NCBI GenBank assembly: GCA_002898375.1
Contig: BEIN01000002.1
Location: 1 to 64,000, forward strand
Direction: 5' to 3'
From: a bacterium HR37
GTDB lineage: Bacteria > Desulfobacterota_D > UBA1144 > Nemesobacterales > CSP1-2
Length of the DNA stretch: 64,000 nucleotides
Below, piece after piece: positions 19,698 to 22,297 of the stretch. Within the stretch, counting starts at the first letter, position 1. Every line of letters starts with the position of its first letter. The translations under genes were made by a program, and so were the position numbers. Below the pieces are notes generated by a model. It was not told the DNA's origin and searched no databases. It worked only from the letters and a program-made list of their open reading frames with translations.

Positions 19698-20939
19698 TTA
19701 AGGGTGGGTTTCCCAGAGGGGGTTGAAGACAAGACCCGAGAGCAGCTTTGGATAAAAATAGGTTGTTTTATGTGGCATTTTTTCCCCAGCCATTGCCACC
19801 TCAAACACATCTGGCGCACTTATAGGGGCAAGAACAATTCCAAGTTTATATTGTCCACTTTTTACAAGGGATACAACCTCTTCGATGGATTTTGTATAGA
19901 GTATCTCGGATTCTTCCTCGCTAATTATCTTACCGAACACAAGTGTGTGAAGAAGCATAACACCCAGGTTTTTATATCTAAACGGAAGCGGTTCTTTTAC
20001 GGAAAATTTAAACACAGAGTCTGAATTTCCGGTAATGAGAGCAAATTCTTGAGGTTTAAGGTTTAAGGTACCGTATTCACAAAGAGGTATTTTTTCCACC
20101 TTAAAGCTTTCTGTTAGCCTTTTTAGAAGCTCATTTATATCAATACGAAGCCTCTTAACAACACGGTGTGTAGGCTTTATGATAAGTCCTTCTCCTTCAG
20201 CCCTTGAAAGATACATCATAACGTATTCATAGGGGTTTTCTTCGGAAACCAAATTGGATTCCTTTCTCCTTAGGTTTCTGTACTCAAGGGCAGTCTCGTA
20301 TCTGTGATGGCCATCGGCTATTAAAAGCTTTTTGCTTTTCATGTAGTTTTTAATCCACTCTATTATGGACTTGTCCGAAACGCTCCAGAGTTTGTTTTTT
20401 ACCCCTTCGCTGTTAGATAAATCAGCTATTGGTTTTTCAGAGGAAATTGCCTCATCAACTGTTCTCTCAAGTATTCCTTCGGGATCAGAGTAGACTGCAA
20501 AAACGGGGCTCAGATTTGCCCTGCAGGCTAAAATAAGCTTTAGCCTGTCTTGCTTGTGCTTCGGAAAGGTCTTTTCATGTGGAAGAATGTTCTGGGTTGA
20601 GAAGTCTTCAAGCTTTACCCTTGCAATAAAACCCTTTCGGATAACCTTTTTCCCCCCTTCTTCAAATTCCTGATAATAGGGGTATATGCAGGGTGTGGTA
20701 TCTTGAATCAGGACTTTTTCTTCTATCCATTCTTTAAATGTTTTCCCTGCTTCGCTGTATCTGCTTTCATCCTCTCCTTTAGGCAGTATAAGCCTAACAA
20801 CGTTATAAATGCTCCTTTCGTAGAGCTCAATTTGTTCCTTTGGGCTTATAACGTCATAGGGAGGAGCAACGACACTTTCTAGAGAACTTACCTTCTTGGG
20901 GTTATAACGAATTCCCCTGAATGCATCTACAGTTACCAT
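19698..20939 (-). CDS. DUF1015 family protein
   Basis: Conserved 413-residue protein of unknown function (PF06245). The N-terminus FRGIRYNPKKV then VVAPPYDVIS (27-36), with NVVRLILPKG and LLIADGHHRYETALEYR (~210-226) are family hallmarks; the DGHHRYE block suggests a catalytic or nucleotide site. No signal peptide or membrane helix. In many genomes it neighbours serine or phosphoserine genes, but not here. Its ATG overlaps the stop of the Sua5-type gene by one base (TAATG), so it depends on translation of that gene, and both share one minus-strand transcript. Confidence 0.85.
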   Translation of the reverse strand: MVTVDAFRGIRYNPKKVSSLESVVAPPYDVISPKEQIELYERSIYNVVRLILPKGEDESRYSEAGKTFKEWIEEKVLIQDTTPCIYPYYQEFEEGGKKVIRKGFIARVKLEDFSTQNILPHEKTFPKHKQDRLKLILACRANLSPVFAVYSDPEGILERTVDEAISSEKPIADLSNSEGVKNKLWSVSDKSIIEWIKNYMKSKKLLIADGHHRYETALEYRNLRRKESNLVSEENPYEYVMMYLSRAEGEGLIIKPTHRVVKRLRIDINELLKRLTESFKVEKIPLCEYGTLNLKPQEFALITGNSDSVFKFSVKEPLPFRYKNLGVMLLHTLVFGKIISEEESEILYTKSIEEVVSLVKSGQYKLGIVLAPISAPDVFEVAMAGEKMPHKTTYFYPKLLSGLVFNPLWETHP

Positions 20940-21553
20940 TAAAGAAGCTCCTCTAACTCTTCTTTCTTAATGTCTCCTTCTCTTAGGATTTGGGGAGGGT
21001 CGGTGGTTAGATCCACAATGGTGGAACCCTTTGACGGTGGAATATTACCTGAATCAACGATAAGGTCAACCTTTTCATTAAATGTCTCAAGTATTTGATT
21101 AAACTCAAGCAGGTTCCTATCTCCACTGATATTTGCACTTGTTGAGGTTATTGGAAAATCTATAAAGTTAAACAGGTTCATTACAAAAGGGTGCCTTGAT
21201 ATCCTGACGGCTATTTTTTTGCTCCCTGCTGAGATTAATTTAGGAAATTCTTTCCTTTCCCTTAATACAATGGTAAGTGGTCCCGGAAGGAACCTTTCTA
21301 TAAGAATAGAGGCTTTCTTATTAACTTCAACGTACTCAGCAAGCATCTCTTTATCCTTTACCAGAACGGGTATTGGTTTCCCATAAGGTCTTCCCTTTAC
21401 GTTAAAGACCCTCTCAACAGAGGCATCATCTAAAGCAGTTGTTCCTATCCCATAGAGGGTTTCAGTTGGATAAACTATAATGCCGCCTTTTTTTAGTACG
21501 GATGCTGCTTTTTTTACGGAATCAATCTCGTTCCCTTTTACTATCTCTGTCAG
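20939..21553 (-). CDS. Sua5/TsaC/YwlC-type threonylcarbamoyl-AMP synthase with non-canonical start
   Basis: Makes threonylcarbamoyl-AMP for the t6A37 tRNA modification. The chain has GGIIVYPTETLYGIG, the KGRPYGKPIPV (KxR..K) motif and TSTSANISG. The first ATG (21346) lies after the first two motifs and cannot be the true start. Upstream, the frame stays open to a stop at 21577-21575 but has no ATG, GTG or TTG. CTG 21553 follows AAAAGGGG (21571-21564) by ten bases; ATT 21526 is the other option. The promoter TTGAAA-17-TAAATT lies at 21608-21580. I annotate from CTG: 204 residues, the normal length. A sequencing error is possible but would still need an upstream start. Confidence 0.85.
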   Translation of the reverse strand: MTEIVKGNEIDSVKKAASVLKKGGIIVYPTETLYGIGTTALDDASVERVFNVKGRPYGKPIPVLVKDKEMLAEYVEVNKKASILIERFLPGPLTIVLRERKEFPKLISAGSKKIAVRISRHPFVMNLFNFIDFPITSTSANISGDRNLLEFNQILETFNEKVDLIVDSGNIPPSKGSTIVDLTTDPPQILREGDIKKEELEELL

Positions 21554-21579
21554 TGTAAATACACCCCTTTTGTCTTATT

Positions 21580-21608
21580 AATTTAAAGTTTTTTAGAAGA
21601 TGTTTCAA
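21580..21608 (-). promoter_or_regulatory. Sigma70-type promoter for the Sua5-DUF1015 operon
   Basis: Minus-strand TTGAAA (21608-21603) and TAAATT (21585-21580) with a 17-base spacer. The start site would fall near 21573, just before the AAAAGGGG ribosome site, so transcription begins too late for any start further upstream. Confidence 0.55.
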
Positions 21609-21694
21609 GTTAAATTCTTTGCCTTCAAGTTGCTTTTTCACATCTTTATATTATCCTTGTTAGCTACATAGCTCTGTTTTTTGGTGAGATGATA

Positions 21695-22297
21695 ATGAAG
21701 AAGATAAAGGTCCAAAAAAAGGGTAAACAACCTATCAGGAAAAAGGGTGACGATATGGGAGAGCCTCTGGAAGACTCTTCGGAGAAAGACCAAATCACGG
21801 TTACGGTTATGATTGAAATACCAAAAGGAAGCAGGAACAAGTACGAATACGATAAAGAAAAGAAGATGCTTAAGTTTGATAGAATGCTCTTTTCTGCAGT
21901 TCACTATCCAAGTGACTATGGTTTTATTTTAAACACATTGGCTAAGGATGGAGACCCACTTGATGCTTTGGTGCTGGTCTGGGAACCAACCTTTCCAGGT
22001 TGCATCATAGAGGCAAGACCAGTTGGGCTTTTTAAGATGTGGGATGAAAAGGGACCGGATGAAAAGATCCTATGCGTTCCACTATATGACCCGCTTTGGA
22101 ATCACATAGAACGACTCTCGGATGTTCCTCCTCATCTGTTAAAGGAGATAGAGCATTTCTTCTCGGTATACAAGGAGCTTGAGAAGAAAAAGACAGGTGT
22201 AGAGGGTTGGGAGGATAAAGAATCCGCTATAGAGATTATAAAGGAGTCACAGCAGAGGTATTTAAAGATCGAACTAGGTTTGGAGCTTGAGTATTAA
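21695..22297 (+). CDS. ppa: Inorganic pyrophosphatase (class I)
   Basis: Hydrolyses pyrophosphate to drive biosynthetic reactions. YPSDYGFILNTLAKDGDPLDALV includes the class I signature DGDPLD with metal-binding Asps; EIPKGSRNKYEYD near 35-47 is the other conserved block. 200 residues; a basic ~25-residue N-terminal leader precedes the core, longer than the usual ~175-residue enzyme. ATG 21695 is favoured over 21689 because GGTGAG (21683-21688) sits six bases before it. It converges with the amidohydrolase gene, five bases away. Confidence 0.93.
   Translation: MKKIKVQKKGKQPIRKKGDDMGEPLEDSSEKDQITVTVMIEIPKGSRNKYEYDKEKKMLKFDRMLFSAVHYPSDYGFILNTLAKDGDPLDALVLVWEPTFPGCIIEARPVGLFKMWDEKGPDEKILCVPLYDPLWNHIERLSDVPPHLLKEIEHFFSVYKELEKKKTGVEGWEDKESAIEIIKESQQRYLKIELGLELEY

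Follow-up and report, generated by a model that had tools for sequence, protein, structure and literature searches.

A CTG codon as the probable start of tsaC in bacterium HR37, and ATA start columns of hflX and rsfS conserved across its order

The minus strand of the window, by which we mean the whole stretch of 64,000 nucleotides that was analysed, carries a tsaC/sua5 gene for L-threonylcarbamoyladenylate synthase at positions 20939 to 21553. According to profile matches and alignment, its coding sequence of 204 amino acids runs from a CTG codon (21553-21551) to a TAA stop (20941-20939), inside a stop-to-stop frame of 211 residues (21574-20939, minus). As the initial annotation had pointed out, this frame has no standard start where one is needed: the earliest ATG lies at 21346, GTG and TTG are absent ahead of it, and the opening stretch of 76 codons that lacks all three extends beyond YPTETLYG, a conserved N-terminal motif that is in frame with the remainder of the gene. 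The PF01300 match covers residues 26-200 of the frame (E 3e-56, 190.2 bits against a cut-off of 25.1), and the score with TIGR00057 (208.7 bits) exceeds the curated cut-off of 123.2. Initiation at 21346 would remove YPTETLYG together with approximately the first 50 of the 178 PF01300 profile positions, that is, more than a quarter of the profile, which bears out the earlier remark that the conserved N-terminal motifs precede the first ATG. Gene callers limited to ATG, GTG and TTG would shorten tsaC by 69 codons.

The possibility of a pseudogene or a frameshift, the latter named in advance as an observation that would overturn the initial proposal, was discarded because the frame shows no interruption and is conserved from end to end, with an identity of 57-67% to members of the same family. 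A second TsaC acting as a backup was also ruled out, since a search of the whole 2.42-Mb assembly revealed tsaC as the only PF01300 gene. This is an ordinary single-copy tsaC, an essential tRNA-modification gene, and its product is predicted to synthesize threonylcarbamoyl-AMP.

Downstream of tsaC is a DUF1015 gene (19698 to 20939, minus), the ATG of which overlaps the tsaC stop codon in the sequence TAATG (20937-20941); from this overlap, the translation of both genes may be coupled. A DUF1015 gene also follows tsaC in genus g8. Immediately upstream of tsaC there is no co-directional gene, and an inorganic pyrophosphatase gene (21689 to 22297, plus) is transcribed divergently; in the g8 genomes, a groES-like gene occupies the divergent upstream position. 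The fitting promoter that had been described before the CTG did not hold up: the possible promoter TTGAAA-17-TAAATT (21580 to 21608, minus) is weak and at chance level, with one match found and 0.9 expected in shuffled sequences. A leader peptide overlapping the start was considered as well (GTG TAT TTA CAC TGA here, and an ATG mini-ORF in genome L002), but, judged by eye, it does not seem to be conserved.

To place the start codon, we compared the gene with 44 genomes of the same order, 37 of which gave a tsaC match and none of which belongs to the same genus. In the codon alignment, the column of the CTG (21551 to 21553, minus) is occupied by TTG in L002, L007 and L014, all three of the other family members with a match. 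The same column is TTG in six f3 genomes (L003, L006, L008, L011, L017 and L053) and in f6 genomes L020, L023-L030, L198, L199, L202 and L203. Each of these three family members has a stop codon in frame 2 to 6 codons upstream of the TTG, and no other canonical start would retain the conserved LTE N-terminus. The finding of TTG in exactly this column strongly supports the proposal that tsaC starts at CTG 21553, and most simply the CTG arose when the first T of an ancestral TTG start changed to C. Other lineages use ATG at a nearby position, two codons upstream of the column in genus g13 and three codons downstream in L200 and L201. The column itself reads TTA, also a leucine codon, in L009, L012, L200 and L201, where ATG serves as the start. 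CTG as a tsaC start was found in this genome only; the non-canonical codon is thus not conserved among the relatives, most of which have TTG and others ATG.

A ribosome-binding site had been attributed to the CTG, and it is located as described: the Shine-Dalgarno sequence AAAGGGGTG, with the core GGGGTG, spans 21562 to 21570 (minus) and ends 8 nt before the CTG. No other tsaC start in the order has so strong a site: its score is 15, compared with 0-13 at the likely tsaC starts of the relatives. Weak starts are reported to carry stronger Shine-Dalgarno sites as a tendency (PMC5622118), and the strength of this one fits a compensation for a weak start, although a single gene does not constitute proof. 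With respect to the TTG-start tsaC/sua5 genes of the order, the gene shares the start column, the LTE(I/V)IK N-terminus and the downstream DUF1015 gene (in g8, where this was checked), and differs from them in having C instead of T as the first base of the start codon and in its stronger Shine-Dalgarno sequence.

These observations are likely explained by an ordinary tsaC translated from CTG 21553. The family ancestor would have carried TTG at this position, and a single T-to-C change would have produced the CTG, which the initiator tRNA would read as a near-cognate codon with the aid of the strong AAAGGGGTG element. On this account the base at 21553 is presumably real and CTG would initiate in vivo; the probable consequence is a lower translation of tsaC, and perhaps also of the coupled DUF1015 gene, and any sensitivity of the start to IF3 would be a side effect of the codon.

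The fact that the CTG differs from the TTG of the family by only one T-to-C change also agrees with a wrong or strain-mixed base at 21553, the true codon being TTG as in the relatives. The assembly consists of 33 contigs with 97.6% completeness and 2.2% contamination, and the relatives compared include no other genome of the genus. However, substitution errors in a consensus are rare, the rest of the tsaC frame is intact, and the unusually strong Shine-Dalgarno sequence is what would be expected from adaptation to a weak start; we therefore regard an assembly error as unlikely. Initiation at a different codon seems very improbable. The ATT (21524 to 21526, minus) offered earlier as an alternative is preceded by AAAAGGG, but the score of this site (11) is lower than that at the CTG (15), and the LTE(I/V)IK segment between the CTG and the ATT is conserved at the protein level. 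Moreover, tsaC starts at this ATT in no relative, for which reason it was ruled out.

It is also quite unlikely that the codon serves a functional control, in which IF3, or the level of t6A, would set TsaC output through the non-canonical start. IF3 represses non-canonical starts in E. coli and Streptomyces (PMC5472188), a review connects t6A with the recognition of AUG in bacteria (PMC9654439), and genus g8 also seems to have lost the TTG or ATG start, with an ATA that is conserved, in frame and preceded by a G-rich Shine-Dalgarno sequence. Nevertheless, most of the order has TTG or ATG at tsaC, which argues against a conserved control, and since CTG is not an ANN codon, t6A would have no direct handle on this start. 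The feedback of t6A through a CTG or ATT start, as the initial annotation envisaged, therefore finds no support in the comparison: the CTG is not shared by relatives, the codon from which it derives was the canonical TTG, and some sister lineages switched to ATG. The simplest reading is that of a sporadic, tolerated rare start derived from TTG, possibly sensitive to IF3, with no sign that this sensitivity was selected.

The three g8 genomes merit separate mention. ATG and TTG are both missing around the tsaC start in all of them (L004, L005 and L010); L004 and L005 keep a GTG in this region, which lacks a Shine-Dalgarno sequence, and in L010 nothing canonical precedes the YPTETLYG motif. Common to the three is an in-frame ATA behind a G-rich Shine-Dalgarno sequence. 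It may be, then, that tsaC left the canonical start set twice in the order and by different codons, CTG here and ATA in g8.

To assess how exceptional the tsaC start is within its genome (G000), we scored the starts of 1,101 gene-like frames from one half of the genome (1.23 Mb). The estimated use of start codons in this half was 82% ATG, 11% TTG and 7% GTG. For evidence against any canonical start tsaC ranked fourth (+16.4 nats), with CTG as its best start. A clear lack of a canonical start was seen in only a handful of frames, including hflX (ATA), infC (ATA) and tsaC (CTG), and less strongly in rsfS. Hence, tsaC is not unique; it belongs to a set that comprises well under 1% of the genes. 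A scan of the genome contigs gave one distant match only, and no 16S gene was found in the assembly. When 455 reciprocal ortholog pairs between G000 and 1.2 Mb of genome G034 were compared, a stretch that does not include infC and rsfS, hflX was the only gene with a clearly conserved non-canonical start, one phosphoribosyltransferase pair being weak. For some high-ranking candidates a rare start is improbable; in G034, an RF2-like frame more plausibly reflects the frameshift known for RF2.

In G034, a phosphoribosyltransferase (hpt-like) frame (C1:900401-900958, minus) scores best from a CTG behind AAGGAGG. In G000, slightly better scores were obtained from ATA or ATT for an AEC-type transporter (C3:127152-128057, minus), a RidA-like frame (C5:40805-41284, minus) and a biotin synthase frame (C5:26277-27317, minus). 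The non-canonical start suggested for the transporter was dismissed, as G034 does not share it; for ridA and bioB, the 1.2 Mb of G034 compared gave no match.

The AUA starts lie outside the window, in hflX (G000:C5:86071, plus), where the ATA is found behind AAGGAGG, in rsfS (G000:C3:141869-142279, minus), and in infC (G000:C7:32476-32997, minus), where an in-frame ATA is preceded by a Shine-Dalgarno sequence. In the order-wide alignment, the start column is ATA in all 28 alignable loci of hflX and in all 30 of rsfS. These codons are located behind Shine-Dalgarno sequences of the GGAGG type, and the stretch from the preceding stop to the ATA mostly lacks a canonical start. For infC, a loosely matched pattern of an in-frame ATA behind a Shine-Dalgarno-like stretch was present in 30 of 30 loci, several of which have an in-frame ATG or GTG nearby as well. 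hflX keeps its ATA in another family of the class, the sister family f8 (12/12), and in both f5 genomes, where it is two codons upstream; rsfS, by contrast, mostly starts with ATG or GTG in f8. As a control, codon usage was measured in two genomes, in which ATA makes up 48-55% of the codons for isoleucine; the further isoleucine columns inspected in the hflX and rsfS alignments contain ATA alongside ATT, ATC or other residues. The start columns are invariant while those columns vary, which is the signature of start codons and not of conserved isoleucines. Given that these rare starts are conserved across the order, the ribosomes of this organism evidently use such starts. We found no report of AUA starts of hflX or rsfS in the literature searched.

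The infC gene, which encodes IF3, is known to start with AUU, AUC or AUA and to be autoregulated by IF3. The comparison with infC made initially was apt in a different sense: infC, hflX and rsfS do start with AUA here, but a feedback on tsaC itself is unsupported. Like infC, tsaC is linked to translation, starts outside AUG, GUG and UUG, and has a strong Shine-Dalgarno sequence, and the infC of the same genome begins with AUA. Unlike tsaC, whose CTG is confined to one genome, infC has non-canonical starts throughout the order, and there is no evident route for feedback from TsaC to the CTG. In S. aureus, the AUA start of infC has been mapped experimentally, and the expression from AUA or AUU starts of other genes was roughly between one tenth and one third of that from AUG (PMC13009471). 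The sigR gene of Streptomyces, with a GTC start, resembles tsaC in being a gene other than infC that has a non-canonical start; its repression by IF3 was shown experimentally (PMC5472188), whereas for tsaC an effect of IF3 is a possibility.

IF3 keeps ribosomal subunits apart, and HflX splits ribosomes. RsfS binds to uL14 and prevents the subunits from joining (PMC7125091). As judged from sequence, the set formed by hflX, rsfS and infC, and not tsaC, is the candidate for an IF3-linked control. Tentatively, and with more doubt than confidence, the AUA starts and strong Shine-Dalgarno sequences of IF3, HflX and RsfS across the order could constitute an IF3-sensed translational circuit that keeps the supply of free subunits in balance; tsaC would have drifted to its margin in two lineages, with CTG here and probably AUA in g8. 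By itself, the CTG of tsaC is a minor start-codon switch, and the AUA starts of hflX and rsfS that emerged from the background scan matter more: if IF3 represses all three genes, a single protein would modulate three subunit-separating factors.
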